Source: Levilactobacillus mulengensis (lineage in GTDB: Bacteria; Bacillota; Bacilli; Lactobacillales; Lactobacillaceae). From it: 64,000 nt of DNA. The notes below the pieces were generated by a model. The model worked only from the letters and a program-made list of their open reading frames with translations. It searched no databases and had not been told where the DNA came from. Location: positions 124,001 to 188,000 of the forward strand of contig NZ_RHNW01000003.1 in the NCBI RefSeq assembly GCF_003946045.1, given 5' to 3'. Positions 1 to 57,235 of the stretch are shown here, in pieces (within the stretch, counting starts at the first letter, position 1; each line of letters begins with the position of its first letter). The position numbers and the translations under genes were made by a program.

Positions 1-27
1 TTGCGGCTGACATTGGTTCAATCCGCA
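1..27 (+). repeat. Family A repeat, 3' end only (copy A0)
   Basis: The first bases read TGCGGCTGACATTGGTT, which matches the conserved 3' end of the family A repeat (CTGCGGCTGACA then GGTTTAA in other copies). The rest of the copy lies left of the window. Bases 28-279 after it hold no gene; I see only a small hairpin near 148-162 (CGACAATGATTGTCG) and an AT-rich stretch that may carry the promoter of the next gene. Confidence 0.55.
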
Positions 28-279
28 GTTACGGGGGGGTGATTGTTGGTGTGTTCCGTTATTTTAGTCCAGTCTAAATTGAGTTGAAGGGATAGTTGCT
101 GTCCATCGTATGCATAGGACATTATTAGCATATTTAAGACAGTGATCTGCGACAATGATTGTCGTTTATCTTAATTATTAATCAGACAATTACTATTTAG
201 TGTTAGCCATTGTAGTTGTTGATGGGTTGGCCTAAAATTGACAGTAAGATCTACATAAATCAATTGCGGAGGCAGAAAA

Positions 280-1053
280 ATGGCACATAAAAAGCACTGG
301 CTAACGGTCGCTGTTGCATTGTTGGCAGCGGGGAGTTTGGCGGGATGTACGTCTAATATGAGTAGTCGGCAGGCCAAGAATGCGTTTAAGCAAGCCCAAT
401 CTAGCAGTAAACAGGCGTCGGGGAAGACGGCCAAAGATGAGTCGATCATCGCGGCTGCCCAATCCTTGAATGCCGATGGCAAATACAAGCAGTCGAACAA
501 AAAGCTGAGCAGTATTAATCTGACGGATCTAAACAAGAAGGGCTTTGGCGCCCTGAAGACGGAATTTTTCAGTCTGCAAAAGAGCAACGATAAATTCCTG
601 TTGAAGAAGACCCAGTCCAAGGGCAATAGCGCGGCTACGAGTCAGACTAGTGGGGGCAACACGGCCACGACGACCACTACCAACAATAGTTTTGACGGTT
701 ACAGCAAGTACGTTGGCGACTATTATTTCTATAATGACGACGATGGCGACCGGCAACAGGAAACGCTAACGATCCACGATAACGGGTCGGTCGTGCAGAA
801 CAACAACGACGGTTCCGCCTTCCACGGGACTGCCACCATCAAGGATTCCGGCGCACACGGTGTCTTGTCCTATGACGTGACGACCGGTACCAACGACACC
901 AAGACCATCGATGCCAACGTGGAGATCGACGTGGTTTGGAGCAACGGCGAGCACGAAACGTACTACGGCTACACGTCCTACGACGATGATATCGTGTTGA
1001 CGGACGGCAACTCGTACGATGGTGATTTAGTGAACGAAGTCTGGATGCAGTAA
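280..1053 (+). CDS. Putative lipoprotein of unknown function
   Basis: A 257-residue protein with a type II signal peptide: basic start MAHKKH, hydrophobic stretch and lipobox LAGC with the lipidated Cys near residue 23. It is therefore probably anchored outside the membrane. Residues about 30-110 are Lys/Ser/Gln-rich and probably helical, followed by a Ser/Thr/Asn linker (about 115-137). A C-terminal domain of about 120 residues is rich in Asp, Tyr and Gly (YYFYNDDDGDR, SYDDD) and looks beta-rich. No family was recognised. A GGAGG ribosome site precedes the ATG and a terminator follows at once, so it is probably monocistronic. The function is unknown; a ligand-binding or cell-envelope role is only a guess. 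Confidence 0.8.
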   Translation: MAHKKHWLTVAVALLAAGSLAGCTSNMSSRQAKNAFKQAQSSSKQASGKTAKDESIIAAAQSLNADGKYKQSNKKLSSINLTDLNKKGFGALKTEFFSLQKSNDKFLLKKTQSKGNSAATSQTSGGNTATTTTTNNSFDGYSKYVGDYYFYNDDDGDRQQETLTIHDNGSVVQNNNDGSAFHGTATIKDSGAHGVLSYDVTTGTNDTKTIDANVEIDVVWSNGEHETYYGYTSYDDDIVLTDGNSYDGDLVNEVWMQ

Positions 1054-1068
1054 ATTTAACGCAGAAAA

Positions 1069-1107
1069 CACACGGCAGCCCGCACATGACGGCCGCCGTG
1101 TTTTTTT
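1069..1107 (+). terminator. Rho-independent terminator after the lipoprotein gene
   Basis: The stem ACACGGC / GCCGTGT is followed by seven T residues and sits 15 bases after the stop codon. The next gene's ribosome site begins directly after it. Confidence 0.8.
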
Positions 1108-1123
1108 GGTCAGGAGGATTTTG

Positions 1124-2098
1124 ATGAAGAAATGGGGATTGTGGTTGCTGGTCGGTGTCGTGAGTCTGGGATTGGTCGGCTGTCAGTCGCGTGGTCAAGC
1201 GAATCAGGCGGCGAAAAAGATGACATCTAGTCGCTCGGCGTCGGCCAGTTCTAGCGTAATCAAGCGAAAAACACCTAAAGCAAAAACAGCTAACGCCAAG
1301 GCCAAGAAGCCGGTTCCAGCCGCGCCATTCAAACAAATTGCGCAGAGCACGATGGGCCACTTGAAGGGGCAAAACGCCGTGTTCATTCAAACAACAACGG
1401 GGCAGACGCTGAGTTGGCACAATCGGTCACAAAAGGCCGCGAGTGATATTAAGTTGTTTATTTTGGCGACGGTCTATCGGCAGGTTGCGGCTGGTAAGTT
1501 TGATTTGGCGGCGACCTATACGCTCCGAGAGGCGGATAAGGTAGGCGGCACCGGAAACCTTCAGGCGCAAGCCGCCGGAACGCGGGTCACCAATCGCGAC
1601 TTGCTAAAGGACATGATGACCGTGAGCGATAACACCGCCACCAACATCATCATCCGCGAGGTCGGGGGCTTGGCGGCCGTCAATCAGGAAATCAAACGCC
1701 TGGGGGCCACCCAAACGGTGCTCCGGCGAAAGATGATGGATCAAAAGGCCCTCGCGGCGGGGCGAGACAACGAAACCTCTGCCCGTGATTTGGGGAACCT
1801 GTTAATGAAAATCTGGCGACACCAGCTGATTTCGCGCGCCGCCGATACGGCGATCTTAAAGTTGATGGCGGCCAATACCAATCACGCCAAGCTGCCAAAA
1901 TTAGTGCCCGCTAGCCGTCAAATCTACAACAAGACCGGTGAATTTGATACCTACGGCGTAGAAAATGACGCGGCCATCTTTGCTCAGGGTAAGCAGGCCG
2001 TGGTGGTCGTGGCCCTGTCCCAAAATGGCGAGCTCTCCCAGCAGGTTCCGGCGATGAATCAACTGGGAAAGCAGATTGATGCCGCCGTGTTTAGTTAG
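1124..2098 (+). CDS. Serine hydrolase lipoprotein, class A beta-lactamase fold
   Basis: The ATG at 1124 was chosen because CAGGAGG lies 8 bases upstream; an in-frame GTG at 1106 lies inside the terminator tail. The 324-residue product starts with a lipoprotein signal peptide (lipobox LVGC, Cys20) and a basic Ser/Ala/Lys linker to about residue 70. The catalytic domain keeps three active-site motifs of penicillin-recognising enzymes: SDIK (Ser107-Lys110), SDN (168-170) and KTG (270-272). The family includes class A beta-lactamases and DD-peptidase-like proteins. In lactobacilli such lipoproteins more often act on peptidoglycan or have unknown substrates than confer resistance. I did not identify a full omega-loop ExxxN motif, so beta-lactamase activity is not claimed. 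Confidence 0.85.
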   Translation: MKKWGLWLLVGVVSLGLVGCQSRGQANQAAKKMTSSRSASASSSVIKRKTPKAKTANAKAKKPVPAAPFKQIAQSTMGHLKGQNAVFIQTTTGQTLSWHNRSQKAASDIKLFILATVYRQVAAGKFDLAATYTLREADKVGGTGNLQAQAAGTRVTNRDLLKDMMTVSDNTATNIIIREVGGLAAVNQEIKRLGATQTVLRRKMMDQKALAAGRDNETSARDLGNLLMKIWRHQLISRAADTAILKLMAANTNHAKLPKLVPASRQIYNKTGEFDTYGVENDAAIFAQGKQAVVVVALSQNGELSQQVPAMNQLGKQIDAAVFS

Positions 2099-2195
2099 GG
2101 ATCGTGACTTAGTTAACGCTGAAATTCACTGATCACGCAGCGGTTAAACGACTTATAATGGAGCTAACTAAGCGGATAAGAGGGATTGATTGTGT

Positions 2196-3173
2196 ATGAA
2201 AGAATTAGACGAGCATCGGCAACAGGAACAGGCCGAATGGCGGGCCCGGCAACAGGCCGAGCTGGCCAAGTTACGTGGCGCTCAACGGCATCTGTATTTG
2301 AATGTGGGGGCCTACTTGAGCATCTCCGTGATTGAGTTTTACTTAGCCATTGTCGGGCACTCCCAAACGTTGCGGGCCGATGCGTTTAACAATTTGTCCG
2401 GGATTATTTCAACCATTTTGTTATTGATCGGCATCTACATCGCCCGTGACATTCACGACGATGATTTGATGGGCCAACCGTTACCGGAGGACTACAGCCA
2501 CAACGGCCAACGCCTCCAGTTGACGCGGTTTCACTACGAAACGGTCTTCACCATGCTGACTGGGATCGTGATGATTGCCATCGCTGCCAGTGTTATTTAC
2601 AGCGGCATCAAGAGTCTCATGAACCCCGCCGACCAGGAGGTGCCCCAACCGATTACGATTCTGGGGGCCGGCATCGCCACGGTCGTCATGCTGGGGGTGT
2701 GGTGGCTGAACCGGCGGGCTGGTCGAAAATTAAAAAATGCCGCATTGACGGCTGCCGCGCTGGATAGTTTGAGCGACGCCATGACCAGTATCGCGACTAT
2801 GATTGCGATTGGTGGTGCGCTGGCGTTCAAGCTGACCTGGCTAGATGGGGTGGCCAGCATGCTGGTCGGTATTTACATTCTGACGGCGGGCATCAAGATT
2901 TTCCGCGAGAGCAGTTTGAACCTGGCCGACTACTTTGACCCGGAAGTTGAAGAACAATTTCGGCAAATGGCTGCGGGCTTTGCGGGGGTCAAACGGGTGG
3001 AAGACCTCAAGGCCCACTACAACGGCAACGTGGTCACGGTTGATTTGGTGATTGCGGTCGATGCCCACATGGAAGTGCAGGATAGCTACCGGTTGGGCGA
3101 GGAGATTGAGGCAGCGATGCGCCACGAATTCGGCGTCGTCGACACCAACGTGATGGCCGTTCCAGCGGGTTAA
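2196..3173 (+). CDS. Cation diffusion facilitator (CDF) family transporter
   Basis: This is a proton-coupled divalent metal exporter of the inner membrane. The N-terminus (about 1-35) is a charged Gln/Glu/Arg-rich tail. It is followed by about six membrane segments, with CDF metal-site regions around RADAFNNLSG (segment 2) and AALDSLSDAMTS (segment 5). The C-terminal cytosolic domain ends in DTNVMAVPAG. The spacing of these motifs is that of manganese/iron-type CDFs (MntE/YdbO-like), but the substrate cannot be settled from sequence alone. The ATG at 2196 is preceded by AGAGGG at 11 bases; an in-frame TTG at 2190 is a possible alternative. A family A repeat begins just after the stop. A relic of the 3' end of a second copy of this gene lies at 7050-7097. 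Confidence 0.88.
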   Translation: MKELDEHRQQEQAEWRARQQAELAKLRGAQRHLYLNVGAYLSISVIEFYLAIVGHSQTLRADAFNNLSGIISTILLLIGIYIARDIHDDDLMGQPLPEDYSHNGQRLQLTRFHYETVFTMLTGIVMIAIAASVIYSGIKSLMNPADQEVPQPITILGAGIATVVMLGVWWLNRRAGRKLKNAALTAAALDSLSDAMTSIATMIAIGGALAFKLTWLDGVASMLVGIYILTAGIKIFRESSLNLADYFDPEVEEQFRQMAAGFAGVKRVEDLKAHYNGNVVTVDLVIAVDAHMEVQDSYRLGEEIEAAMRHEFGVVDTNVMAVPAG

Positions 3174-3188
3174 AATGATGTTGGCCTC

Positions 3189-3457
3189 GCCTCCGGGCTG
3201 GTGAAAGCTGAGCCTGGTCGCGGTGGTTTTCGTTCCCGGCGGCAGATTCAAAGTGCCCGGCTATGGGGCCGGTTCCAGACTGAGGGGCGGTCTTCCACCT
3301 CAACTTTGAGCCTGAGGTGCGGTCTCAAAGGTTGTCCCGTAGGCTAGGCTGGGGAAATGCGTCCCAGCCAAGACCACCGACACAGCTGGGCATCTTGGCT
3401 CGCCTCTGGTCACTTCTACGACTGGCTCAGTTTTCCCAGCCCTGCGACTGACATGGG
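3189..3457 (+). repeat. Family A structured repeat, copy A1
   Basis: This is a full-length copy directly downstream of the CDF gene. The ends pair: 3195-3214 (GGGCTGG...CTGAGCC) with 3424-3442 (GGCTCAG...CCAGCCC). An inner hairpin pairs GGCTGGG (3347-3353) with CCCAGCC (3363-3369). Conserved blocks between them include CGTTCCCGGCGGC, CTTTGAGCC, GGTCTCAAAGGTTGTCCC, GACACAGCTGG and GCCTCTGGTCAC. The same blocks recur in eight other copies with different but still complementary stems. Confidence 0.9.
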
Positions 3458-3459
3458 TT

Positions 3460-3490
3460 AACCCCGTTGGGAGCCATCACGGGGTTTCTT
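3460..3490 (+). terminator. Terminator hairpin following repeat A1
   Basis: AACCCCGT pairs with ACGGGGTT across a short loop and is followed by TTCTT. It would end a transcript running from the CDF gene through repeat A1. Confidence 0.65.
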
Positions 3491-7049: not shown

Positions 7050-7097
7050 ATCTTGTGGAAAATCTGAAGGCACACTATAACGGCAACGTGGTCGCGT
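7050..7097 (+). pseudogene. Relic of the 3' part of a CDF transporter gene
   Basis: The frame reads LVENLKAHYNGNVV, matching RVEDLKAHYNGNVV of the intact CDF gene at about 2996-3040. It stops resembling CDF at GTGGTCGCG and continues directly as family A repeat (copy A2). The intact gene has GTGGTCACGG and repeat A1 has TGGTCGCGG, so the junction looks like a deletion at a shared TGGTC. Confidence 0.75.
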
Positions 7098-7292
7098 CCG
7101 TTTCCGGCGGCGAGCTCAAGACGCCCTGCTGTGGGGCCAGCTCCAGCCAAAGAGTGGGCTTCCACCTCAACTTTGAGCCTGGGGGGGTGGCAAAGGGCTA
7201 GGCTGTGCATCTTGGCTCGCCTCTGGTCACTTCCACAACTGGCACAGTTTTCCCAGTCCTGCGGCTAACGTGGGTTTTACCCAGGAACCATC
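7091..7292 (+). repeat. Family A structured repeat, truncated copy A2
   Basis: It keeps the conserved blocks CCGGCGGCGAG, CCACCTCAACTTTGAGCC, CATCTTGGCTCGCCTCTGGTCAC and CCTGCGGCTAACGTGGGTT. It has lost the 5' arm of the closing helix, fused to the CDF relic, and most of the inner hairpin, where a G-rich run follows CTTTGAGCC. It is closest to copy A1, as expected if both derive from one duplicated junction. Confidence 0.8.
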
Positions 7293-10640: not shown

Positions 10641-10812
10641 CGAGTCTGGGACAAACCCAAGACTCGTTTTTGTGTCCCCATTTATATGGTCAAAACGTGC
10701 GACAAAAGGCACCCGGTTCCGCTTAAAACTGCTAACCAAACAATCCAAGACCAGGATTATTCGGTTAGCAGCCTTAATGCTCGCCGGCTAAACGCCCTTT
10801 GTCCCACTCTCG
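10641..10812. repeat. Family C intergenic repeat, copy C1
   Basis: The left end is a terminator hairpin, CGAGTCT / AGACTCG plus a T tract (10641-10671). The body includes a long stem GCTAACC (10731-10737) / GGTTAGC (10763-10769) enclosing CAATCC / GGATTA. The outer ends pair as TGGGACA / TGTCCCA. From about 10680 onward it is nearly identical to copy C2 at 40749-40919. It lies between convergent genes and probably ends transcription from both sides. Confidence 0.85.
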
Positions 10813-16809: not shown

Positions 16810-16825
16810 ACGGGTTAAACTTATG

Positions 16826-17030
16826 TTGTCAGCGCCTCCGGGAAGGTGAAAATGAGGCCGGTCCGCTGTGGGCGAACGTCCGGAGCCAAAGAGCGGTCTC
16901 CAGACTTACTTTGAGCCTCTGAAAAGCGAGTCTCAAAGATATCAATTGCCTAAGCGGCTTACGCCACTAAGGCAATTCCCACGGCTGGGCTCATTTTCAC
17001 CTTCCCTGCGGCTGATATGGGTTTAACCCA
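16826..17030 (+). repeat. Family A structured repeat, divergent copy A3
   Basis: This shorter subtype keeps the outer frame. GGGAAGGTGAAAATGAG (16840-16856) is a perfect 17-bp complement of 16990-17006, and the ends GCGCCTCC and CCCTGCGGCTGATA are conserved. Inside, AGAGCGGTCTCC, CTTTGAGCC and GTCTCAAAG remain. An inner hairpin ATTGCC...GCGGC / GCCAC...GGCAAT takes the position of the variable stem. The conserved CGTTCCCGGCGG block is largely replaced. Confidence 0.85.
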
Positions 17031-17094
17031 TTTATCAGATGTCATCCAAACTATCCGTGAATAAACTTAATCAGCATTAAATCTCAATACACAT

Positions 17095-26942: not shown

Positions 26943-27818
26943 TTAATAATAGAATTTTTCTAGTAAGTGACTGAGGTATTTGAAGAAATCAATTCCTGAG
27001 TGGTAAGCATACTTGCCAATAAAAACGAGGCCAATGACGGTGACGGTCGTCGCAATGATCAGCAGGTAAATCTTATCTAGTCGCGGAGCCACAATGTCGA
27101 TTGTTGTCGTGAAATATTGCAGCGACAACATAAGTACCGTGATAACGACGAGGGCAACCATAAAAAGTATAATTCGCTCAAATTTCTTATCGGTAACCGT
27201 GTAGCTATCACTGGATTTTATGGTGGTGGTGAAGTTGACAAATACAGCAATAATCAGTAAAGCAATATTGGCAATCACGAGACTGCTTGCGCTGGTGGCG
27301 AAGTGGTTTGTAAACTCCAAGAAGTTTCGGGGAGCCTGGGTGTCGCCAAGTTGTCTAACGACGTAGGCCACAATCAGGAAGAGCGCGTAGATGAAGAGGG
27401 CAATTAAGAATAAGCCGAAAGCAAGTTTACGGTGAATCTCGCCGGCCGGTATCATGGCGCGGACCTTCGTCGAGTATTGGGCAATTGACATGAAGATAAA
27501 ATGATTGGCGATTAAGTAGGCAATCATCGTGGTCAGTACCAGGTTGATCAGTAGGAATCCAATGCCGAAAAAATGATTGGCATTGATTGGGGCTAGCGTT
27601 GGTTGACGAAGGGCGTCTCGCCACCAAGAGAAAAAGTTTCCAGTAAAGTTCTCTTGGGGAGTGTCCTGAGTAGGAACCGGGTCGGGAGTTACTGGTTCTT
27701 GGGGCGCTTCGTTACGTGCAGAAGCAACGCTACCAAGTTGATAGCCGCACTTGGGACAGAATTGGGCAGAGCCGGAGAGCGGGTTGCCACAATTGGGACA
27801 AAACTTAGGGTTATCCAT
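26943..27818 (-). CDS. Zinc-ribbon multi-pass membrane protein (operon gene 5)
   Basis: A 291-residue protein. Residues 7-25 form a zinc ribbon, CPNCG...CPKCG. A Pro/Glu-rich linker follows, then FFSWWRDALRQP and about six membrane segments. The paralogue upstream (27843-28655) has the same plan: zinc ribbon, linker with Pro/Glu, F-W segment then membrane domain with FLEFTNHFA against FWEFTNHFA. It is the last gene of a five-gene operon in which every product begins with a zinc ribbon. AAGGAGGT precedes the ATG. The function is unknown; such proteins in Firmicutes are often annotated as zinc-ribbon domain membrane proteins. Confidence 0.85.
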   Translation of the reverse strand: MDNPKFCPNCGNPLSGSAQFCPKCGYQLGSVASARNEAPQEPVTPDPVPTQDTPQENFTGNFFSWWRDALRQPTLAPINANHFFGIGFLLINLVLTTMIAYLIANHFIFMSIAQYSTKVRAMIPAGEIHRKLAFGLFLIALFIYALFLIVAYVVRQLGDTQAPRNFLEFTNHFATSASSLVIANIALLIIAVFVNFTTTIKSSDSYTVTDKKFERIILFMVALVVITVLMLSLQYFTTTIDIVAPRLDKIYLLIIATTVTVIGLVFIGKYAYHSGIDFFKYLSHLLEKFYY

Positions 27819-28666: not shown

Positions 28667-30145
28667 TTATTCGTCTTCGTGACGGTCAGACGTTTTCACA
28701 GCGTGACCGTACTTCACGATTTCGTAGCTTTGCGATGAATCGTCACTAGCAGGTTGAACCGTGGCGGTGTACTGGAAGTCCTGCACGTGGTCGTAGTCGT
28801 AATCGCTCAGGCCAAACGTGTATTCAACCGTGAAGACCACTTCACTAGTGCCATTGGGGCCAGGCTTAACGTCCGTCACGTCGGTATCCATATTAATGGC
28901 GTCGAGGTCGTCGTTGTCGTTGTACCCCTTGGCCATCTTTCTAAGATCAGCGTAGTAGTTATTGCTGGTCCCGTTGACAAAGAAGTCGGACATATCGTCA
29001 CCATCGTCATCGGTACTATCGTCATGGTCCGAGAGATTTTGCGCGGCTTCGAATAGGCTTGAAATGAAGTCGTCGGCGTCACTCTGGTCTATCATATCCT
29101 TATAATCCAAGTCGACGTAACTGCCGTCATCATCCTTTTTCAACTTGGTGGTTGGCGTTGTGGCCTTACCAGCACTGGACGTGTAGGCGGCGTAAACGCT
29201 CATATCGGACGTCCACGGTTCGTTCTTGATTTGGTAAGTCCCTGTGCTATCGGCGGTCCCAATCTTCTTGCCGTTTAAGTACACGTTAGAACCCGCAACG
29301 GTGTCTAGTTCCACTGAAATAGTGGTCAGTTCCAAATCATATGTCTTGTTACTGGTGATGTGATAATCGCTACTGTTGGTCAGGTTGTGGCCACCAATTT
29401 TTCCTTTGGATTGCAGGTGATATTCACCGGGCACCATGGCGGACAGTTTCTTGGTGAAGCTGTCAGACGTGGCGGTCGCAATCTTGTGGTTATCCAGCGT
29501 GATCACGTTGCCGGTATGGTTGGTCGTGACGGTCGGGTAGACCGGGCTCACGCTAATCTGGTACTTCGGGAAGAACAATAGGTGATGGCCGTTTTGTTCG
29601 TAAACGAAATCGCCGTCCGCACTGCGACCGCTGTTATCGAGATCGGCCTTCAGCTTGCTCAAATCCCGGGAATGGTCGCTGTAGTAGCGGTTGATGGGCA
29701 ATAGTTTAGACTTGCTCAACGTCAAATCAGAACTTGCGCTGGTGAAGTCGTCCGTCAGGTGCTTGCCACTCTTGATATCGTTGATGGTCCGGTCCAGCGT
29801 TGCCGCGCGGGAGTAGTGATTGCTGCCCCACACGAAGAAGCCGATGACGGCTACCGCGGCGACACCAATGCCCCACCAGAGGCGCTTCTTTTTCTTGGAC
29901 CACGGTTGCCGTGGCTTGCGGGCTGGCCGAGTGGGGGCTGTCCGTTGTTGTGTTGGCGTGGTTGCTTGCGGTTGTTGAGGCGCTTGAAATTGGTTCGTGT
30001 CGCCGGTAGCGACCTGTAAGTTGGCGCCACAGTTGGGACAGAATGTGTCCGTGGCTGAGACCGGTTGGCCACAGTTGGGGCAGAAGTTAGCGGCCCCGCC
30101 GCCAGGTTGATCATTGGCGGGGGCTGCGTAATGGGTTAAATGCAT
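28667..30145 (-). CDS. TcaA-like zinc-ribbon membrane protein (operon gene 3)
   Basis: A 492-residue protein with TcaA/YvbJ-type architecture. The zinc ribbon is CPNCG...CPNCG (residues about 22-40), followed by a Gln/Thr/Pro linker, a basic stop PWSKKKKRLWW, one membrane segment (about 92-108) and a large external part with successive beta domains. The external part includes the GEYHLQ / NVYLNGKKIGT type found in TcaA proteins, an Asp-rich linker (SDHDDSTDDDGDDM) and a C-terminal NTF2-like-looking domain. In staphylococci TcaA affects glycopeptide susceptibility and cell-envelope behaviour. It is a paralogue of operon gene 1. GGAGGAATCC precedes the ATG. Confidence 0.85.
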   Translation of the reverse strand: MHLTHYAAPANDQPGGGAANFCPNCGQPVSATDTFCPNCGANLQVATGDTNQFQAPQQPQATTPTQQRTAPTRPARKPRQPWSKKKKRLWWGIGVAAVAVIGFFVWGSNHYSRAATLDRTINDIKSGKHLTDDFTSASSDLTLSKSKLLPINRYYSDHSRDLSKLKADLDNSGRSADGDFVYEQNGHHLLFFPKYQISVSPVYPTVTTNHTGNVITLDNHKIATATSDSFTKKLSAMVPGEYHLQSKGKIGGHNLTNSSDYHITSNKTYDLELTTISVELDTVAGSNVYLNGKKIGTADSTGTYQIKNEPWTSDMSVYAAYTSSAGKATTPTTKLKKDDDGSYVDLDYKDMIDQSDADDFISSLFEAAQNLSDHDDSTDDDGDDMSDFFVNGTSNNYYADLRKMAKGYNDNDDLDAINMDTDVTDVKPGPNGTSEVVFTVEYTFGLSDYDYDHVQDFQYTATVQPASDDSSQSYEIVKYGHAVKTSDRHEDE

Positions 30146-31885: not shown

Positions 31886-32125
31886 TTGACGGGAATACAG
31901 ATTGGTCGTGCTGTTCGTTCCCGGCGGCGAATTCAAGGTTCCCTGCTATGGGGGACGGCTCCAGCCTGGGAAGCGGGCTTCCGCCTCGACTTGAAGCCTG
32001 GAAATTCACCAGTCTCCAAGGTCGCCCCATGCTCTAAACTGAGAAAAGCACTCAGTTTAGACCATCGACACAGCCGGGAACCTTGATTCGCCTCTGGTCA
32101 CTGCCAACTGGTCGGTATTCTCGCG
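31886..32125 (+). repeat. Family A structured repeat, copy A4
   Basis: The ends pair, GGGAATAC (31891-31898) with GTATTCTC (32115-32122), and pairing continues through G-U pairs. The inner hairpin is an 11-bp perfect stem, TCTAAACTGAG (32033-32043) with CTCAGTTTAGA (32051-32061). All core blocks are present (CGTTCCCGGCGGCGA, CTGCTATGGGG, GCGGGCTTCC, GACACAGC, GCCTCTGGTCACTG). This copy lies between divergent genes and so does not follow a stop codon. Confidence 0.88.
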
Positions 32126-32309
32126 AGTTCTAGCAACACACTAATGGAATCCGTACTGGCATTGGCGAAACTGACTAGCACATGTGTGGGTTCTATTTTG
32201 TCGTTTATTGACTAACGACACTGGTTTTTGCAGCAACGAACACTAAGCGGATGAGATTATGTATGACCTGAACAGGCAGTTGCTTAAATATTGACTACCC
32301 AACACCGGA

Positions 32310-33142: not shown

Positions 33143-34916
33143 TTTTGCGATTATCGCCCATATCGACCACGGAAAATCCACGCTGGCCGACCGCATCATG
33201 GAACAGACCCAAACCGTTTCCGACCGCGAAAGCCAAGCCCAGCTATTGGATGATTTGGCCGTGGAACAAGCCCACGGTGTCACCGTAAAATCCCGGACGG
33301 TCCGTAATTATTACACGGCCGATGATGGCCAGGAATACGAATATAACTTTATCGATACTCCGGGTCACGTCGACTTCACCTATGAGGTGTCCAAGAGCCT
33401 TGCCGCTAGTGATGGCGCGCTTTTACTGGTCGATGCCACCCAGGGGGTGCAGGCTCAAACGGTTGCCAACTTGCGTTTGGCCCAGGACAACCACCTAACC
33501 GTGATTCCGGTTATCAATAAGATTGACGCTGCTGCGGCGGACGTTGAGCGGACCGCCGAGCAGATTCGGTCGTTGTCCCCAGATTTTGTCGACGTCACCA
33601 TGCTTAAGATTTCTGCCAAGACCGGCCTGAATGTCCACGATGTATTGGAAGCCATTCACACCACGATTCCGGCGCCCACGGGATCGGTGAAACAACCACT
33701 CAAGGCGCTGGTTTTCGACTCCCAATACGATGCCTTCAAGGGCATCATCGCCTACGTCTGGTTGATGGATGGGCAGCTGAAGCCGAACGATAAGCTGAAA
33801 TTAATGGCCACCGACCAACCGGTGACGGCCAACGAAATTGGCATTTTCACGCCACAACGGGTCGCTGCCAAGCAGTTGGTGGCCGGCGATGTGGGCTACG
33901 TAGTGACTGGGTTGAAGGACCCACAAGCCTTATGGGTCGGGGATACGCTGACCAGTGTGGCCAACCCCACGGCCACGGCGCTCCCGGGGTATCAACCCTC
34001 GCAGTCGATGGTCTTCGCCGGGTTCTATCCCCAGGGTGATCACTACCACGATTTACAATTGGCCGTGGAAAAGCTGGCACTCAATGATGCGTCGTTCCAC
34101 TACCGGCCAGAAAGTTCCGACGCCCTAGGAGCCGGCTTCCGGTGTGGCTTCCTGGGTATCTTTCATTTACAAATCATCCGCGAACGCCTGCATGACGAGT
34201 ACGGTCTGGACGTGCTGACTACGGCGCCCAACGTGACCTATCGTGTGCACGTGAAAAACGTGGACGAACCAGTGATTGTCGACAATCCCATCAAGTTCCC
34301 CGACTACAGTCAAATCGATTATGTCGAGGAACCCTTAGCCACGGCGACCATCACCACGACCAGCGAGAGCCTGAGTGACGTGATGAAGCTGGCGACTCAG
34401 CACAAGGGGGAGCTCCAAGATATGCGTAACCAAGGGGATTTAGTCGTCCTCGAATACCAATTACCATTCGCTGAAATTGCTTACGACTTTTTCAACGCGC
34501 TGAAGTCCGTTTCTCACGGGTACGCCACACTGACGACCGAACTGGCGGGCTACGATATCGCCGACGTGGTCAAGGTGGAGGTCCATGTGAACTACGCCCG
34601 GGTCGACGCGCTATCCTTTGTGGTTCACCGCGAGGACGCACCACAGATGGCCCAAGAGCTGGTTCACAAATTAAAGTTCGTGATTCCGCGTAAACTGAAC
34701 CCGATGCCAGTTCAATCCGTGGTTGAGGGCAAGGCCCTGGCCCGCGTTGACGTGCCACCGTTGCGGAAGAACGCCGCGGTCAATGGCGAGAAGCGTAGCA
34801 CGTCTAAGAAGCAGGCGTTGTTGCGGCGACAGAGCGTGAACAAGCGGCAGTCGGCACACAGCGATATCGAGCTACCCCAGGAAGTCTTCAACGCCGTCCT
34901 CGACTTAGAAAAGTAG
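33120..34916 (+). CDS. lepA: LepA (elongation factor 4) paralogue
   Basis: A 598-residue translational GTPase with the LepA domain plan. The P-loop reads AHIDHGKST, then DTPGHVDF (G3) and NKIDA (G4). EF-G-like domains II, III and V are present, and the LepA-specific C-terminal domain reads KFVIPRKLNPMPVQSVVEGK...LRKN...LPQEVFNAVL. The switch I region is DDLAVEQAHGVTVKSRTVRNYY, where housekeeping LepA has ERERGITIK, so this is a divergent copy. The C-terminal CYGGDI-type stretch is also replaced. ATG 33120 has GAGGAGG upstream. It is overlapped by the preceding tetR gene. The stop codon lies in the closing helix of repeat A5. I expect a separate housekeeping lepA elsewhere. Confidence 0.88.
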   Translation: MQIQNVRNFAIIAHIDHGKSTLADRIMEQTQTVSDRESQAQLLDDLAVEQAHGVTVKSRTVRNYYTADDGQEYEYNFIDTPGHVDFTYEVSKSLAASDGALLLVDATQGVQAQTVANLRLAQDNHLTVIPVINKIDAAAADVERTAEQIRSLSPDFVDVTMLKISAKTGLNVHDVLEAIHTTIPAPTGSVKQPLKALVFDSQYDAFKGIIAYVWLMDGQLKPNDKLKLMATDQPVTANEIGIFTPQRVAAKQLVAGDVGYVVTGLKDPQALWVGDTLTSVANPTATALPGYQPSQSMVFAGFYPQGDHYHDLQLAVEKLALNDASFHYRPESSDALGAGFRCGFLGIFHLQIIRERLHDEYGLDVLTTAPNVTYRVHVKNVDEPVIVDNPIKFPDYSQIDYVEEPLATATITTTSESLSDVMKLATQHKGELQDMRNQGDLVVLEYQLPFAEIAYDFFNALKSVSHGYATLTTELAGYDIADVVKVEVHVNYARVDALSFVVHREDAPQMAQELVHKLKFVIPRKLNPMPVQSVVEGKALARVDVPPLRKNAAVNGEKRSTSKKQALLRRQSVNKRQSAHSDIELPQEVFNAVLDLEK

Positions 34917-35236
34917 GGTTCCGATTGCCGTTCCCGGCGGCGGATTCAAGGTGCCCTGCTGTGGGGCCGGTTCCAGCCTAAGGGGCGGGCTTCCACCTCA
35001 ACTTTGAGCCGAAGAACGGTCTCAAAGGTTGTCCCATGCTCTAAGCAGAGAAAAATCGCTCTGCTAAGACCATCGACACAGCTGGTCATCTTGATCCGCC
35101 TCTGGTCACTGACACGGGCAACTTTTCTAAGTTGTAGGCAGTGGTGTCTAACCGGTTTGTTCAGCGGTACCTTGGATTTTAAGTTACACAGCGTGGCCCA
35201 TTTTCACCGGTCCTGCGGCTGACACTGGTTTAACTT
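34903..35236 (+). repeat. Family A structured repeat, copy A5
   Basis: The body (34921-35115) has all core blocks. The inner hairpin AAGCAGAG / CTCTGCT is at 35043-35050 and 35059-35065. ACTTAGAAAAGT at 34903-34914, which is the last four codons of lepA plus the first base of its stop, is a perfect complement of ACTTTTCTAAGT at 35121-35132. A second 3' tail with CCCATTTTCACCGGTCCTGCGGCTGAC in separated form continues to 35236. The copy thus begins inside the coding sequence. Confidence 0.88.
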
Positions 35237-35336
35237 ATTCTGTTTGCTACTTCTGTGGCCGGTGTGAAGTCTTTTCTGGCACTGAATTTGCTTAACTTTT
35301 CTATTATTCTGTAATCAAATAAGCGAATATTCATCC

Positions 35337-36225: not shown

Positions 36226-36762
36226 ATGAAGGATGTTCCCGCCAAGGAATTTGAAGCCGGCAAGGTCTGGATTATTGATCAATCTGTGTTCCCAGCCGCC
36301 AAGACGATTTCTGCGGCCATTGTTGAAGTGCAACCCGGTGGGATGCGGGAAATGCACTGGCACCCAAAGTCTGAGGAATGGGATTACTACATTCAAGGTC
36401 AAGCCAAGGTGGGTGTCTTCAATTCCAACACGTTAGCCCGGACGTTTAACTTTAATGCCGGTGACGTGGGCGTTATTCCTAAGGAAGCCGGTCACTACAT
36501 TCAAAACATTGGGACGGAACCGCTGATCTTTATCGAATTGTTCAAGAACCCGGTTTACTCCGACGTTTCCCTGAACAAGTGGTTAGCAACGTCCCCATCG
36601 CAAATGGTTTCCGATCACCTGAACCTGCCCGTTTCAACGGTTGAAGGTTTCCCAAGTGAAGAGGCTGCAGTCGTTTGGTACAAGGATGCCGCCGGTCGTG
36701 AAGTGCAACACCCAAAGAGCGCACCAGATACCAGTAGTGCTGCCGACGTTTTCAGCGAATAG
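36226..36762 (+). pseudogene. oxdC: Oxalate decarboxylase, C-terminal cupin half (gene split by TAG)
   Basis: This is the continuation, in the same frame, of the gene starting at 35548. The second cupin has MHWHPKSEEW and, later, EAGHYIQN, both complete metal-ligand sets. The ATG at 36226 is an internal Met codon with no ribosome site in front, so efficient separate translation is unlikely. There is no frameshift or deletion: changing one codon would restore a protein of about 404 residues, close to the usual 385. Either the lineage recently lost the gene or the stop is a sequencing error. Confidence 0.85.
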
Positions 36763-36772
36763 AAGTGATTTC

Positions 36773-38107
36773 ATGACGCAAACATTTGAGACCATCGTCA
36801 TCGGTGGGGGTGTCGGCGGTGCCGGTGCCGGTGCAGCTATGCGGGCCGTTGCCCACGGTCAATCCGTTGCGGTTATTGAGCAGCGTGATTGGGGTGGCAC
36901 CACCGTGACGCGGGGCAGTACCCCGAAGAAAGTCTTACTAGCGGGCGTTGAAGCCCACCGTGCGTTTGCCCAACAGAATGGCCCGGTGCCACCAGTGGAC
37001 TGGTCACGACTAGCCGCTCATCGGGATACCGTCGTGGGGCAGACGCAGGAACGGTTTAAACAACGTTTCCAAACCAATGGCGTCACCACCTTTGAGGGCC
37101 ATGCCGAATTTGTGAATGGCCAGCAGGTACGCGTCAATGGCGAACGGCTAACAGCGAAAAATTTTGTGATTGCGACCGGGGCTCGTCCCCGTGAAGTCGC
37201 GATTCCTGGCGGCCAGTTGATTCAACACTCCGGCAGTTTTTTCCGAAGTCATCAACTCCCACAACGGATCACTATCCTCGGTGCCGGCGTGATTGCCTTT
37301 GCGATTGCCGGTATCGCGAGTGAGGCGGGCGCCGCCGTGACGCTGGTTCAACACAACCACGTGGCGCTTCGCGGTTTTGATGGCCAACTCGTCCAAACAC
37401 TGTTAGCTAGCCTGGCCAAACACAACGTGCACATGATTTTTGACGATGAAATTTCCCGGTTGGCCCAGACGTCGACGGGACTTGAGGTGACGACGCAGCA
37501 GGGTGCTCACTGGTCCACCGACGTGGTTTACGCGGCTTTAGGCCGACTGGCTAACGTCGAGGACTTGAATTTGAAAGCTGCTGGGGTGGCCGTAACCCCC
37601 CACGGCATTCGCGTCAATGAGTACCTGCAGACTAGCAATCCCCAGATTTATGCGGTCGGGGATTGTGCCGTCACCGGAACGCCTAATTTGGCAAACTATG
37701 CCATCTATCAAGGCAAATATGTGGGCGATGCGCTGAGTGCGCCCCAAGCTTTTCCGATTGTCTATCCGCTTCAGGCCAGCGCCGTCTTCAGTCTCCCCCG
37801 GTTAGCGCAGGTGGGCGCCAGTGTTGCGGCTGCGCGTCAAGATCCCGCGCACTATACCCTGAAGACCGTTGACCTGAGTCAGTGGTTAACGTATCAACGA
37901 AACTATGATACCGATGCAAAATTACTGTTGGTGATTAATCGTCAAAGTGGTGAAGTAATTGGTGCCGAAGCCATTAGCTACCAGGCCGACACGGTGATTA
38001 ACCAGTTGGCCCTCTTGATCCAGCAACATGTGACACCAGAAGCGCTACATGACACGTTCTTCGCTTACCCGTCCTCTGCCGCCGATTTGTACGGCATCTG
38101 GACCTAA
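36773..38107 (+). CDS. FAD-dependent oxidoreductase, disulfide-reductase fold without redox cysteines
   Basis: A 444-residue flavoprotein with the pyridine nucleotide-disulfide reductase plan. The FAD-binding GGGVGGAGAG is at residues 11-20 and ATGAR follows. A second dinucleotide site reads ILGAGVIAFAIAG, the FAD-contact motif is YAVGDC, and a C-terminal dimer domain is present. The redox motif, normally GGTCVNxGCxPKK, reads GGTTVTRGSTPKK, so both Cys positions are Thr44 and Ser49. The enzyme cannot use the usual disulfide relay and may act as an NAD(P)H oxidase or reductase of another acceptor. It starts 10 bases after the broken oxdC with a weak ribosome site. Repeat A6 follows the stop. 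Confidence 0.85.
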   Translation: MTQTFETIVIGGGVGGAGAGAAMRAVAHGQSVAVIEQRDWGGTTVTRGSTPKKVLLAGVEAHRAFAQQNGPVPPVDWSRLAAHRDTVVGQTQERFKQRFQTNGVTTFEGHAEFVNGQQVRVNGERLTAKNFVIATGARPREVAIPGGQLIQHSGSFFRSHQLPQRITILGAGVIAFAIAGIASEAGAAVTLVQHNHVALRGFDGQLVQTLLASLAKHNVHMIFDDEISRLAQTSTGLEVTTQQGAHWSTDVVYAALGRLANVEDLNLKAAGVAVTPHGIRVNEYLQTSNPQIYAVGDCAVTGTPNLANYAIYQGKYVGDALSAPQAFPIVYPLQASAVFSLPRLAQVGASVAAARQDPAHYTLKTVDLSQWLTYQRNYDTDAKLLLVINRQSGEVIGAEAISYQADTVINQLALLIQQHVTPEALHDTFFAYPSSAADLYGIWT

Positions 38108-38395
38108 CGCGGGTCTCCGGACTGGTGAAAACCGTGCCGGACGTGGGGCTGTCCGTTCCCGGCGGCGGGCTCAAAGCGCCCTGCTGTGGGGCCGGTTCCA
38201 GCCAAAGGGCGGGCTTCCACCTCAACTTTGAGCCAAAGACCGGTCTCAAAGGTTGTCCCATGGGCTAAGTAGCGAAAACCACGCTACTAAGGCCATCGAC
38301 ACAGCTGGTCACTTTGGCCCGCCTCTGGTCACTAACATCCACCAGCGTGTCCTGTTTCAGCAGTCCGGAGGCAGACGCTGGTCTTGTCCAGTGCC
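38108..38395 (+). repeat. Family A structured repeat, copy A6
   Basis: It begins directly at the stop codon of the flavoprotein gene. Closing helix: CTCCGGACTG (38115-38124) with CAGTCCGGAG (38361-38370), 10 bp perfect. Inner hairpin: AGTAGCG (38268-38274) with CGCTACT (38282-38288). Core blocks are all present (CGTTCCCGGCGGCGGGCTCAA read in parts, CTGCTGTGGGGCCGG, CGACACAGCTGG). Confidence 0.9.
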
Positions 38396-38441
38396 ACAAG
38401 TAAATAGCGGTCGGTTTTAAGTGAATATGAGAATGATAGTC

Positions 38442-38784: not shown

Positions 38785-38869
38785 GTTTAAATAGTTTGAG
38801 GCTATTGTGAAAAAGTGCCTGTTACGAGATTGATTGGTGCGGTGGTCGTCTTTAAGAGTCTTTAAGACA

Positions 38870-39118
38870 GTAAAATGGGCGATCCAATGTCAGTGACCAG
38901 AGGCGGATCAAAGCGACCAGCTGTGTCGATGGCCTTAGCTGAGGTTTCTCACTCAGCTTAGACCATGGGACGACCTTTGAGACCGAACTTTGGCTCAAAG
39001 TCGAGGTGGAAGCCCGTTTCACAGGCTGGAACCGACCCCACAGCAGGGCGCTTTGAATCCGCCGCCGGGAACGAATGCCACAGCGTTCCGGCCTATTTTC
39101 ACCGTCCGGTAAGGCGAA
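38870..39118 (-). repeat. Family A structured repeat, copy A7 (minus orientation)
   Basis: It begins immediately after the stop codon of the Nudix gene on the minus strand, so its position relative to the gene equals A1, A5 and A6. The inner hairpin is CTTAGCTGAG (38934-38943) with CTCAGCTTAG (38952-38961). The closing helix pairs the complement of GCCTATTTTCAC (39091-39102) with that of GTAAAATGGGC (38870-38880), partly through G-U. All core blocks are present on the minus strand. Confidence 0.88.
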
Positions 39119-39583
39119 TCAGTGCGCCAATCCGTCAAAGTAAGTTTTGGTGGCGGCGAGCATGTCGGCCGTCTGTTGATTCAACAGCGGCGGCAACTGG
39201 TCCAACGGGAAATATTTCAAATCCAGCGTCTCGTCCGTCGCCGTTTCCAGAGTATGCCCACCCACGGGTTTCACCAGGTACAGCCGGGAAATAACCTGAG
39301 TCACGTCGCCGTTGGGATATTTGGTAAAGCCTTGATCGAAGAGTCCTAGTGGCTTGACGATTTCAACGTCGAGGCCGGCGTCTTCCTTGTACTCGCGAAT
39401 CATGGCGTCGTCGTAAGTTTCACCGTATTCCAGGTAACCGCCAGGCAGGCTCCAGTTGTGGGTGTCGGTCCGCAGGTTAAGCAGCACTTCATGCTGGTCG
39501 TTGGCCACGATGCCCGCCGCTGCGTTTAAAATTAAGGGCTTGTGTCCCACTAGATCCCGCACTTCTTTGATATAGTTTGCCAT
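39119..39583 (-). CDS. Nudix hydrolase
   Basis: A 154-residue cytosolic hydrolase of nucleoside diphosphate-linked compounds. The Nudix box reads GYLEYGETYDDAMIREYKED then AGL, with one conservative change (Glu to Asp in the REXXEE core). It has the usual N-terminal strand ILNAAAGIVANDQHEVLL. The short leader YIKEVRDLVGHKPLILNAAAG is typical of lactobacillar Nudix proteins of unknown substrate. The ATG follows AAAGTAGG on the minus strand. Repeat A7 follows directly. Confidence 0.9.
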   Translation of the reverse strand: MANYIKEVRDLVGHKPLILNAAAGIVANDQHEVLLNLRTDTHNWSLPGGYLEYGETYDDAMIREYKEDAGLDVEIVKPLGLFDQGFTKYPNGDVTQVISRLYLVKPVGGHTLETATDETLDLKYFPLDQLPPLLNQQTADMLAATKTYFDGLAH

Positions 39584-40748: not shown

Positions 40749-40919
40749 TGAGTCTGGGACAGAACCCCAGACTCATTTTTGCGTACCCATTTATCTAGTC
40801 GAAACGTGTGACAAAAGGCACCCGGTTCCGCTTAAAACTGCTAACCAAACAATCCAAGACCAGGATTATTCGGTTAGCAGCCTTAATGCTCGCCGGCTAA
40901 CCGCCTTTTGTCCCACTCT
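40749..40919. repeat. Family C intergenic repeat, copy C2
   Basis: The left terminator stem TGAGTCT / AGACTCA differs from C1 (CGAGTCT / AGACTCG) by a compensating change at the first pair. From about 40790 to 40915 it is nearly identical to C1, including GCTAACC / GGTTAGC and the outer TGGGACA / TGTCCCA pairing. It lies between the convergent fic and padA genes. Confidence 0.85.
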
Positions 40920-45738: not shown

Positions 45739-45905
45739 GGTATTCACAATAGCGGCGGATAAGAGAATAGGCTAAACTATTTTCTGAGATAGAAGTAAAA
45801 TAAACGGGAACGTCATTCTCAGCCGAGAGGGCGTCGAAAATAAACTCAGCTGTATTGGTGATTACTATGGCATATGAGATTAATAGTTGGCAGAACAAGA
45901 AGAGC

Positions 45906-46202
45906 AACCAGTGCTCCAGAACTAGGGGGCCACTCCGTCATGGGTAAAAACCAATCTTAGCCGCAGGAAGCCAGGGATGGAGGCGGCTGTGTCGATGGTG
46001 TTGAGCAGGGTTCTTTCCTGCTCTACAGCATGGGCCGACTTTGGAGACGGGTGGGTTTCGCGGCTTCAAAGCGAGGTGGAAGCCCGCCCTTTGGCTGGAA
46101 CCGGGCCCCACAGCAGACGGAATCCCTGGAAGCCGGAGGCGGTCAGTTTGACACTAATTTTCAGTCAGAAAACCAAGCGCCCTAGTTCTGGAGCAATTGG
46201 TT
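45906..46202 (-). repeat. Family A structured repeat, copy A8 (minus orientation)
   Basis: The best closing helix of the family: TGCTCCAGAACTAGGG (45912-45927) is a perfect 16-bp complement of 46180-46195, and AACCA / TGGTT extends it. The inner hairpin is GAGCAGG (46003-46009) with CCTGCTC (46017-46023). The core blocks are recognisable on the minus strand (CTGCTGTGGGGCCCGG, GCGGGCTTCCACCTC, CGACACAGCCGCC), but the closing helix has a sequence found in no other copy. Confidence 0.88.
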
Positions 46203-46393
46203 AAAACTGATAACTAATAAAGCCCCCCAACTACTGATTTTGTCACATATCGCGTATGATAGGGTCGACGGTAGCAGTTAGTAAGTCAATTCTGGCTAAC
46301 TAAGCTGAGTGAACGGCTGAGGAGGTTAGAAAAGGTAAGTTGCCAGTCAGAATTTAGGATTACAGCTGAGGCCCTTAACCGTTATGCTATATA

Positions 46394-51800: not shown

Positions 51801-51932
51801 AAGATTGCGGCTAGTGTCTTAGAGATTGATCTGACGGCAACCGCAACCAATGTCACGGTCATTAGTGGCCCAATCCCAACCTATGGGGTTAGCGTGAATG
51901 GGCATTTGATTTCTTTGGAGAAGGTCGGGTAG
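48855..51932 (+). CDS. Fusion of a truncated esterase with a GH65 glycoside phosphorylase
   Basis: A 1025-residue protein in one frame. Residues 1-300 are an HSL-type alpha/beta hydrolase: HGGAYYGG (121-128), GDSAGGS with Ser188, and the acid region VGEYDPF (293-299). At residue 301 the sequence switches to the start of a GH65 enzyme, DVADHQPEYLETIFSLANGHFGVR. The GH65 part has the catalytic-domain motifs HYFWDTE (619-625) and TGPDEY with the general acid Glu753, and a complete C-terminal region. GH65 enzymes phosphorolyse alpha-linked disaccharides such as maltose, kojibiose or nigerose. The esterase part lacks the final helix with the catalytic His. GAGAGGGG precedes the ATG. Confidence 0.9.
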   Translation: MLNDTTTKQSLGYNDELRRLQKMRVSSVEDGVTSWIKERDPIHTFEPLVWETVAEIEENPQLPTDLFSLRQGTETSGQRDLTNVEMKVEMQQIVSMNRRVRVIRIARMDHLTADKALIYFHGGAYYGGTPEDVLLALKFVAEQANCVVYNVDYALAPEQAYPAGILDGLAVVAAMTKSYQQISLGGDSAGGSIALAVSQLCKSMGICTIASHMLFYPTLIQGSDLNGPLWDDRSIPVVDEQRDALHRSYQLFEQLDTIMSGYYVADQPVDLTAPLLSPLLADPEIFHRVTVLVGEYDPFRLHDVADHQPEYLETIFSLANGHFGVRANDPITGNPITGTLINGFYETAPITYGEAGIGYATKHQTILNLPDFRHIHVATATGHDFTNSERTAADLDLTTGALVEHYTLQTLQGETITMIMKSTIGQTQTEFWAASYSFMAANYAGGLVISKSIAVPAEAEAIASADPRKTRMAGLPICETEFMGRNLQRYHVKTRQTKQAVTIYLGMLTPGDGLLRQTVDLSDRVAHDLTYEVYVGAIGQQNTIDPAAPFMANSLSVLLADSRDFWQDVWNRSEVTVSGNDELDLAIHYNLFQLNQAAGRDGRTNIAAKGLSGSGYEGHYFWDTEMYMLPYFIYTNQQMARQLLLYRYQTLPKARQRARALGVAQGALFAWRTINGEEASAYFPAGTAQYHIDADVAYAVGKYYEITRDIDFIEQCGFEMVLETAHFWEAFGSWHQVGTDSRFEFHTVTGPDEYTALVNNNYYTNRLAKHNFELVAYLAKEILKDDPQGLDKFGIGRADLDVFENLAEHVYLPYSADLHINEQDDSFLSKPRWPVDRSTPENFPLLLHYHPLTIYRYQVAKQADTLLADYLFPEDLTDDQLKREYHYYEGVTTHDSSLSRSIFSILAARMGDPEKAYHYFMDTAQMDLVNLQKNTADGLHLANLGGSWLALVAGFSGFYVQDEVVHFTNHLPKEIHRLTYRMKIAASVLEIDLTATATNVTVISGPIPTYGVSVNGHLISLEKVG

Positions 51933-52120
51933 AGTGCGGAGCGAGCCGATTAGGTCCTGAGCATTAGGGAGTCAAAGAGCTTCTGTCCGACAGCGTCGGT
52001 CAGGAGTTCTTTGACTTTCTAAGCGCAGGGACCTGGCTCGCGTAGCACGTTTCGGAGGCCGCCAGGACCAGGATTGTTCCACGAAGAACCAGACAAGCGA
52101 CCTAAGGCAGATTGAAATGA
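51930..52120 (+). repeat. Family B structured repeat, copy B1
   Basis: It starts at the stop codon of the GH65 fusion gene (TAGAGTGCGGA). Outer stem GCGAGCC (51941-51947) / GGCTCGC (52035-52041), with AGGTCC / GGACCT stacked inside. Long inner stem 51971-51991 / 51995-52015 (GTCAAAGA...CCGAC with GTCGG...TCTTTGAC). Conserved loops include TGAGCATTAGGGA and CTAAGCGCAGGG. A downstream block CGTAGCACGTTTCGGAGGCCGCCAG is also shared. Confidence 0.9.
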
Positions 52121-55576: not shown

Positions 55577-55629
55577 TTGGGAGAAGAGCGGTATACTGGG
55601 AGTAATTAAACTTCTGGAGGAAAATACCC

Positions 55630-56124: not shown

Positions 56125-56427
56125 TTTCAAGCCCATGGTGGCGGCCAAAATAACCGTCACCCAAAGAAGCTTGCGCCAGTCCTTGGATTCGTGGAAGAAT
56201 AGCATCCCGGTGATCACGCCACCGGCCGCCCCGATACCGGTCCACACGGCATAGGCGGTGCCCATCGGCAGGGTCTTTAGGGCCAATTCGAGGCCACCAA
56301 AACTGAGGGTGAACGCTAGAATCATGAGCGCCCACAGCCCCCATCTTTTGGCATGTAAGGCCCAGTTCATGAAGGTGACACCTAGCATTTCACTGAGTCC
56401 CGCGCAGATTAAATAGAGCCAAGCCAT
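56113..56427 (-). CDS. ykkD: SMR family guanidinium exporter subunit
   Basis: A 104-residue, four-helix membrane protein of the small multidrug resistance family. It matches YkkD closely: LYLICAGLSEMLGVTFMN with the essential Glu in helix 1, then MGTAYAVWTGIGAAGG in helix 3. It begins 2 bases after the ykkC stop. YkkCD-type pairs form a heterodimer that exports guanidinium in exchange for protons, fitting the guanidine-I riboswitch upstream. Its stop overlaps the end of the convergent GNAT gene. Confidence 0.92.
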   Translation of the reverse strand: MAWLYLICAGLSEMLGVTFMNWALHAKRWGLWALMILAFTLSFGGLELALKTLPMGTAYAVWTGIGAAGGVITGMLFFHESKDWRKLLWVTVILAATMGLKLIS

Positions 56428-56429
56428 AA

Positions 56430-56753
56430 TTATTTCGCTCCTTTCGTCGTGACTTGTAAGCCACCGATACCGATTAACAAAAGAATAATCAGGCCAACTT
56501 TGGCCAGGCTAACGGGTTCACCAAACGCCAAGATGCCGACGCTGGTGGTCCCCAGCGTGCCCAGACCGACAAAGACCGCGTAGGCGGTACCAGCAGGGAT
56601 GTGCCGGCTGGCCCGAATCAAGAAATAAAAACTCAGATAGACGGCAATGCCGGTAACTAGCCATTCCCAGGGGGTCGTGGCGTGTTTGAACCCGACGACC
56701 CAACTGACCTCAAAAATTGCGCCTAAAACGACGGTTAACCAATGTTTCCACAT
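56430..56753 (-). CDS. ykkC: SMR family guanidinium exporter subunit
   Basis: A 107-residue SMR protein like YkkC: VVLGAIFEVSWVVGFKHA with the conserved Glu in helix 1, then GTAYAVFVGLGTLGT in helix 3 and a short C-terminal tail TTKGAK. GAAGGAGG precedes the ATG. It is the first gene after the guanidine-I riboswitch and is translated next to ykkD. The pair would remove guanidine from the cytosol. Confidence 0.92.
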   Translation of the reverse strand: MWKHWLTVVLGAIFEVSWVVGFKHATTPWEWLVTGIAVYLSFYFLIRASRHIPAGTAYAVFVGLGTLGTTSVGILAFGEPVSLAKVGLIILLLIGIGGLQVTTKGAK

Positions 56754-56774
56754 AAATAAGTCCTCCTTCTACAG

Positions 56775-56906
56775 AAAAAGCCTGAGAAACCTTGTCAGTT
56801 TTGACAAGATCTCCCAGGCTTTTTCCCTTCCGTGTCTGCGGTAGTCACCACAGGTTCTCTCTCGGACCAGACCCAACGGATTGGCGGAACCCTAGAGAAC
56901 AAAAGT
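56775..56906 (-). promoter_or_regulatory. Guanidine-I (ykkC) riboswitch with terminator
   Basis: Minus-strand signatures in order: CTAGGGTTCCG, GGTCTGGTCCGAGAG, ACACGGAAGGGAAAAAGCC and TGGGAGA, the conserved core of the ykkC class. The final segment AAAGCCTGGGAGA also pairs with TTTCTCAGGCTTT in a terminator, with CTTGTC / GACAAG toward the loop. Ligand binding would keep the terminator open. It directly precedes ykkCD. Confidence 0.96.
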
Positions 56907-56947
56907 ATTCAGTTTTGCTTGGCGTGGTTAAACAGATTGTTGTCCGC

Positions 56948-57235
56948 GCCTCCGGGTCGGCAAAAAAATGCGGCACAACGCGGTGACGTTCGTTCCCGGC
57001 GGCGGGCTCAAGGTGCCCTGCTATGGGGTCGGTTCCAGCCTGTGAAGCGGGCTTCCACCTCGACTTTGAGCCAAAGAGCGGTCTCAAAGGTCGTCCCGTG
57101 ATCTAAGCAGAGAAAATCACTCAGCTAAGATCACCGACACAGCTGGGCACCTTGGCCCGCCTCTGGTCACTGAGACTGACCGTGTTAACGCATTTTCACC
57201 AACCCTGCGGCTGACACGGGTTTAACTCGCGAGCA
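56948..57235 (+). repeat. Family A structured repeat, copy A9
   Basis: Closing helix: GGGTCGG...ATGCG (56954-56972) with CGCATTTTCACCAACCC (57189-57205). Inner hairpin: GATCTAAGCAGAG (57100-57112) with CTCAGCTAAGATC (57120-57132). GATC/GATC at its base is a pairing not used by other copies. All core blocks are present. It lies between the divergent ykkC leader and gldA, not after a stop codon. Confidence 0.9.

Follow-up and report, generated by a model that had tools for sequence, protein, structure and literature searches.

The 64,000-nucleotide stretch of Levilactobacillus mulengensis DNA considered here (contig NZ_RHNW01000003.1, positions 124,001 to 188,000, hereafter ‘the window’) carries nine dispersed copies, A1 to A9, of a short non-coding element, together with the clipped tail of another copy at its left edge. 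The original prediction interpreted these repeats as a large RNA fold whose helices co-vary between copies, and held that simple transposon copies would share their ends instead. All nine copies, and the closing helices named there, are present in the sequence. A covariance model of 134 positions and 33 pairs (R1), built from 62 cores out of the 67 dissimilar ones among 133, recovers exactly these nine in the window and no others (E ≤ 0.001), three of them (31942, 38180 and 57017) being among its 62 training rows. The family is much larger than first stated, with many lactobacilli holding dozens to hundreds of copies, and the element resembles an ordinary structured RNA less than it does a mobile element that folds as DNA.

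Each unit consists of a branched core of about 130–140 nt enclosed by variable arms, described here on the strand that is the sense strand when a copy follows a gene. The stem P1 terminates in GCTGTG/CACAGC and encloses a GGGG/TCCC arm bearing hairpins P2 and P3, plus a hairpin P4 with an A.A mismatch that is conserved in 139 of 147 rows. The first alignment of the repeats had blocks in common and variable stems, as predicted, although not every connecting block is kept: A4 carries CTTGAAGCC where CTTTGAGCC was claimed, and A2 and A3 depart as listed in the table. In Levilactobacillus, a TCCA/TTCC internal loop is usual in P2 (95 of 150 aligned rows), and in other genera this place often has variable yet complementary letters. 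The tail at the window’s edge, placed at 1–27 by the prediction, is real and extends to about base 69, because the whole copy spans 123758–124069 of contig C23.

The closing arms outside the core vary by subtype. Many copies in the same genome start with GGGTTAAAC...GCCTCCGGG and finish with CCCTGCGGC...GGTTTAACCC, and these canonical ends form terminal inverted repeats of about 45 nt. The arms of the shorter copy A3 (16834–16859 and 16987–17012) are 88% complementary. Arms score on average 14.8 against their own partner versus 9.4 against arms from different copies; the own partner ranks first in only 27 of 120 cases and among the top five in 55 of 120, because canonical arms are common to many copies.

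Copies of the element in the window and sites of presence or absence among sister species
Feature	Position	Strand	R1 core	Remarks
Clipped copy, 3′ tail	1–69	+		whole copy on contig C23
A1	3168–3469	+	3257–3389	R1 match; canonical ends; stop codon of upstream gene at 3173, inside the 5′ end
A2	7091–7285	+	7125–7242	R1 match, 40.5 bits; degenerate, hairpin P4 lost
A3	16812–17032	+	16862–16988	R1 match, 47.6 bits; shorter subtype, ends of the same kind
A4	31886–32130	+	31942–32077	R1 match; closing arms non-canonical
A5	34903–35240	+	34955–35085	R1 match; inverted copy of the upstream gene’s end in 3′ arm; remnant canonical 3′ end at 35187–35239
A6	38108–38435	+	38180–38308	R1 match; begins immediately past the stop codon of the open reading frame (ORF) 36641–38107
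A7	38869–39160	-	38917–39047	R1 match
A8	45860–46238	-	45983–46117	R1 match; closing palindrome long and non-canonical
A9	56926–57231	+	57017–57146	R1 match; canonical ends
Presence/absence site	G012 contig 2, 187009–187352 of the examined stretch			absent in G033
Presence/absence site	G000 contig C12, 166154–166428			G012 counterpart interior-deleted; absent in G033
Presence/absence site	G033 stretch, 328 bp			absent in G000 and G012

A query with a single copy gave at least 46 matches in the same genome (40 of 314 first-look candidates scored), and profile searches located 67 sites (87 matches) in 440 kb of the L. mulengensis genome and 83 sites (106 matches) in 400 kb of that of its sister species G012; by extrapolation, several hundred copies are expected over 3.11 Mb. 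R1 itself yielded 232 matches in 944 kb (E ≤ 0.001). It matches 34 of 35 Levilactobacillus genomes, this one included, with at least 57 matches in 22 of them. In a wider sample of Lactobacillaceae, 44 of 201 genomes in 10 of 40 genera, counting Levilactobacillus, were matched (E ≤ 1e-4); all 24 carriers searched again were matched, and nine of these had over 100 matches among 140 scored candidates. Outside the family, one of 23 genomes gave a single match (E 3.9e-6). Lactobacillaceae had been named as the range to search, and the family was indeed found there: a sequence pattern designed on Levilactobacillus returned 21 stretches, all from species of that genus, and 20 short loci of other genera have the same fold layout in different letters. 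Ends vary between genera and the core fold is constant. In L. fujinensis (L089, L090, L092, L096, L097 and L098), many copies have about 30 additional upstream flanking bases in common, forming a species-specific subfamily with longer ends. Carriage by phages or plasmids was rejected after a search of both collections with one 221-base query (L037, identical to a copy in L. brevis CD0817), which gave no match.

The covariation on which the prediction was founded is evident in at least two helices and far exceeds the shuffled and slid controls. Among 150 aligned matches (147 distinct), 27 of the 33 pairs are altered on both sides, and 96.4% of cells are paired versus 83.0% after shuffling, a figure that leans upward because the alignment was fitted to the model; sliding by one to three columns lowers pairing to 34–54%. 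The covariation score is 0.375 versus 0.133 for shuffled alignments, with none of 500 shuffles as high, but since the alignment was fitted to R1, shares its training rows and ignores kinship (no tree), these values are not probabilities. Rows from other genera, which lie outside the training set, have 90.9% of 737 cells in Watson-Crick pairs.

Covariation this strong across genera favours a structured RNA, either part of mRNA 3′ ends or an opposite-strand transcript, with a role such as mRNA stability, processing or scaffolding and multiplied by some route. The mismatches tell a different story. On the gene-sense strand, in the 18 pairs that occur as two or more Watson-Crick types, G-T accounts for 27 and A-C for 103 of 2651 cells, whereas 18 distinct tRNAs of the same genomes hold 37 G-U and no A-C among 392 pairs (15 and 0 of 243 in a first, smaller control). 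In other genera the sense-strand counts are 12 G-T, nine of them at one doubtful pair, versus 15 A-C in 737 cells. Wobble pairs are thus rarer than A-C in the covarying helices, unlike in tRNAs, and the element is not simply an RNA; its covariation does not by itself show one, and the inference of a large RNA fold has only partial support. If it is the complementary strand that folds, the bias takes an RNA-like sign in both sets, and an opposite-strand RNA may then account for it, as may a single DNA strand in folded form.

Comparison of 30 orthologous copy pairs between G000 and G012 points the same way, with one-sided changes about equally to or from G-U (18) and A-C (16), which again speaks against an RNA. 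The two-sided changes in these pairs replace one Watson-Crick pair with another in 35 of 39 cases, although two G012 copies were used twice and the rows sharing a partner hold 13 of the 39. Searches of Rfam (4227 families) also fail to supply a known RNA: in the window, only a Guanidine-I riboswitch reached its gathering score, outside the repeats, and one copy (E ≤ 10) and 12 loci of other genera (E ≤ 1) gave sub-threshold matches only. That riboswitch (84.5 bits; 56809–56906, minus strand) lies immediately upstream of A9, on the opposite strand to it.

Placement at gene ends also fits the RNA explanation. No copy among 129 lies within a predicted gene, and gene contexts mirror those of intergenic gaps (gene calls by our own script). 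Of the 48 copies with a co-oriented upstream gene, 42 begin between -40 and +50 nt from its stop codon, versus 2 of 68 equally close where a stop codon faces the 3′ end. Across 338 copies in 2.78 Mb of three species, counted with orthologous copies as separate, 131 are sense-adjacent to a stop codon and 2 antisense-adjacent, versus 53 expected for each under random placement. Among 46 copies behind a co-oriented gene, a sense terminator lies within 160 nt downstream in 30 and upstream in four; those 30 are therefore within the transcript, and position suggests that read-through may reach some copies.

These relationships do not extend to the whole family. A sense role in the 3′ untranslated region was rejected as an account of all copies, since 74 of 122 have no co-oriented upstream gene, and a terminator-following rule was rejected for other genera, where the 20 loci have sense terminators upstream in nine and downstream in eight and hence no clear rule. 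An opposite-strand promoter in the 3′ flank was likewise rejected, because the flanks of 232 copies show no asymmetry in promoter-like sites (39 antisense versus 34 sense). With these counts and the mismatch pattern set against the oriented placement and the covariation, we consider a structured RNA improbable, albeit the foremost of the rivals.

The original prediction set the repeats apart from simple transposon copies, which it expected to share their ends, yet shared ends are frequent among the copies of this genome, and three sites differ by presence or absence of the element among the sister species G000, G012 and G033. Direct repeats at the three sites measure 5, about 6 and 11 bp, and two are imperfect. 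Insertion cannot be separated from deletion with certainty at a single site. Three further orthologous sites show interior swaps, in which a retained outer helix encloses an interior of a different subtype. Near 193 kb on contig C23, G000 has one more tandem unit than G012, and G033 is also shorter, as judged by length only. Interior deletions at short repeats are common, and tandem and partial copies occur.

Such features bring to mind ordinary remnants of miniature inverted-repeat transposable elements (MITEs), that is, non-autonomous derivatives of insertion sequences moved via their terminal inverted repeats. The inverted repeats, the direct repeats at polymorphic sites and the tandem and partial copies all agree with this explanation. 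Nevertheless, we judge it very unlikely, given that the direct repeats are unequal in length, that the core fold persists across genera whose ends differ, and that covariation extends to inner hairpins distant from the ends. Moreover, in 2.78 Mb of the three genomes no longer unit turned up in a search for a 5′ and a 3′ end of the element lying over 120 bp but at most 6 kb apart without a core, and a larger autonomous unit was rejected on this result. An IS200-type Y1 transposase was also rejected as mobilizer: the L. mulengensis genome has five matches, and 7 of 11 carrier-rich genomes have none.

Stems may also be kept paired by the copying process itself. Template switching is presented as a source of compensatory double changes in the portion consulted of a published study (PMC8794818). 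In our data, the P3 stem of A6 is perfected in the G012 orthologue, and the G000 arm of A5 is an inverted copy of the last codons of the upstream gene. The A.A mismatch is replaced by a pair in 8 of 147 rows, six of which also closed the neighbouring loop, a loop that is closed in 31 of the 139 rows that keep the mismatch. General copying of host flank into the closing arm was rejected: A5 is a true example, yet inverted repeats beyond the borders of the element occur at close to the chance rate, with scores of at least 10 in 4 of 120 copies versus 2.6 expected, and of at least 9 in 11 versus 7.0 expected.

Taken to its limit, this process would make the copies passive palindromes, with template switching and gene conversion across hundreds of copies as the sole means of maintaining pairing and with neither RNA nor DNA function. 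The concerted perfecting of stems, the 35 two-sided swaps between orthologous copies and the published precedent fit this proposal, which we regard as unlikely. The A.A mismatch, kept in most rows, should not outlast correction, and therefore correction alone does not explain the family; the same layout in nine other genera should not outlast it either, and the placement is strongly oriented.

The likeliest interpretation, ahead of structured RNA, passive palindromes and MITE remnants in that order, is that the repeats are a Lactobacillaceae family of mobile elements, non-coding and non-autonomous, whose ability to fold is maintained at the DNA level with help from template switching, and we give it about an even chance of being correct. 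Copies would spread as DNA, and the fold would matter during copying or insertion, when the element is single-stranded DNA; strict Watson-Crick pairing would therefore be retained in source copies. Hairpin-templated copying may help to repair stems and create new closing arms, and resident copies would then drift free of RNA-like selection. A more specific form of this hypothesis, which we offer only tentatively, is that the element moves as a folded single DNA strand into the 3′ ends of transcription units, in one orientation, via an undescribed recombinase, with DNA-level selection and template switching keeping its stems paired; strong covariation here would therefore not be a sign of RNA.

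Several observations weigh against a DNA-level mobile element and call for appropriate caution. There are just three presence/absence sites, their direct repeats are unequal and partly imperfect, and deletion could account for some of them. No mobilizer came to light: neither the longer unit nor, in most carrier-rich genomes, a Y1 transposase was found, as described above. The A.A mismatch in 139 of 147 rows demands something besides template switching, and sense-only placement at gene ends also fits an RNA. Finally, three columns carry 75 of the 103 A-C cells (46, 15 and 14).

We found no earlier description of the element in the open-licence literature, in line with the original prediction, whose author knew of no described family with this layout; stem-loop families have been counted in Lactobacillus johnsonii (PMC2267715, consulted in part).

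Several known systems nonetheless offer instructive parallels. Integron attC sites act as folded single DNA strands, with variable letters, a retained fold and conserved imperfect pairs. The element resembles them in keeping its fold and its imperfect pairs despite variable letters, but its copies are single and dispersed over contigs rather than arranged in a cassette array. The double-hairpin elements of mitochondrial DNA are mobile palindromes whose fold is likewise better preserved than their letters, although they are organellar and much smaller. MITEs are non-coding as well, and the terminal inverted repeats and presence/absence sites recall them; the multi-helix core conserved across genera while ends change, and the absence of a partner insertion sequence in 2.78 Mb, do not. 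Rfam structured RNAs share covarying helices around conserved loops, whereas the element is unmatched at curated scores, occurs in hundreds of copies and lacks RNA-like wobble on the sense strand. Repetitive extragenic palindromic (REP) sequences and bacterial interspersed mosaic elements (BIMEs), which are associated with REP-associated tyrosine (Y1) transposases (RAYTs), are high-copy, intergenic, palindromic and non-coding, as is the element. They are short hairpins, in contrast to a branched fold of about 130–300 nt with strong covariation and with Y1 unmatched in 7 of 11 carrier-rich genomes. In the passages searched of one paper on REP sequences and RAYTs (PMC12306157), lactobacilli are not mentioned.

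The window holds other features of interest. A second repeat of 157 nt (10654–10810 and 40763–40919, 94% identical) has a terminator-like hairpin at one end; in G012 a different hairpin of this type occupies the second site instead, comparable differences occur in similar stretches at C23 206058 and C12 42321, and it is perhaps a recently active terminator-bearing element. Another dispersed family of about 180 nt, 68–85% alike, occurs at 51929–52109, 58639–58805 and 62346–62662, and the G012 copy corresponding to about 58651 holds about 120 extra bases. Three adjacent minus-strand ORFs share a 65-nt direct repeat (27744–27808, 28578–28642 and 30026–30090, 65–75% alike) whose GCC..TG..CAG..TG pattern resembles putative zinc-ribbon coding sequence. 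The ORF at 1106–2098 (plus strand) is class A beta-lactamase-like, beneath every curated cut-off shown.

If the preferred interpretation is correct, food-fermenting lactobacilli contain a widely conserved, high-copy component that has so far been overlooked. It would also be a natural case of strong covariation that lacks RNA-like wobble, which bears on the calling of structured RNAs from covariation alone, and it would provide many orthologous stems per genome pair for measuring template switching. Should the element prove to be an RNA after all, it would be an unusually abundant one, located at the 3′ ends of mRNAs in several genera.

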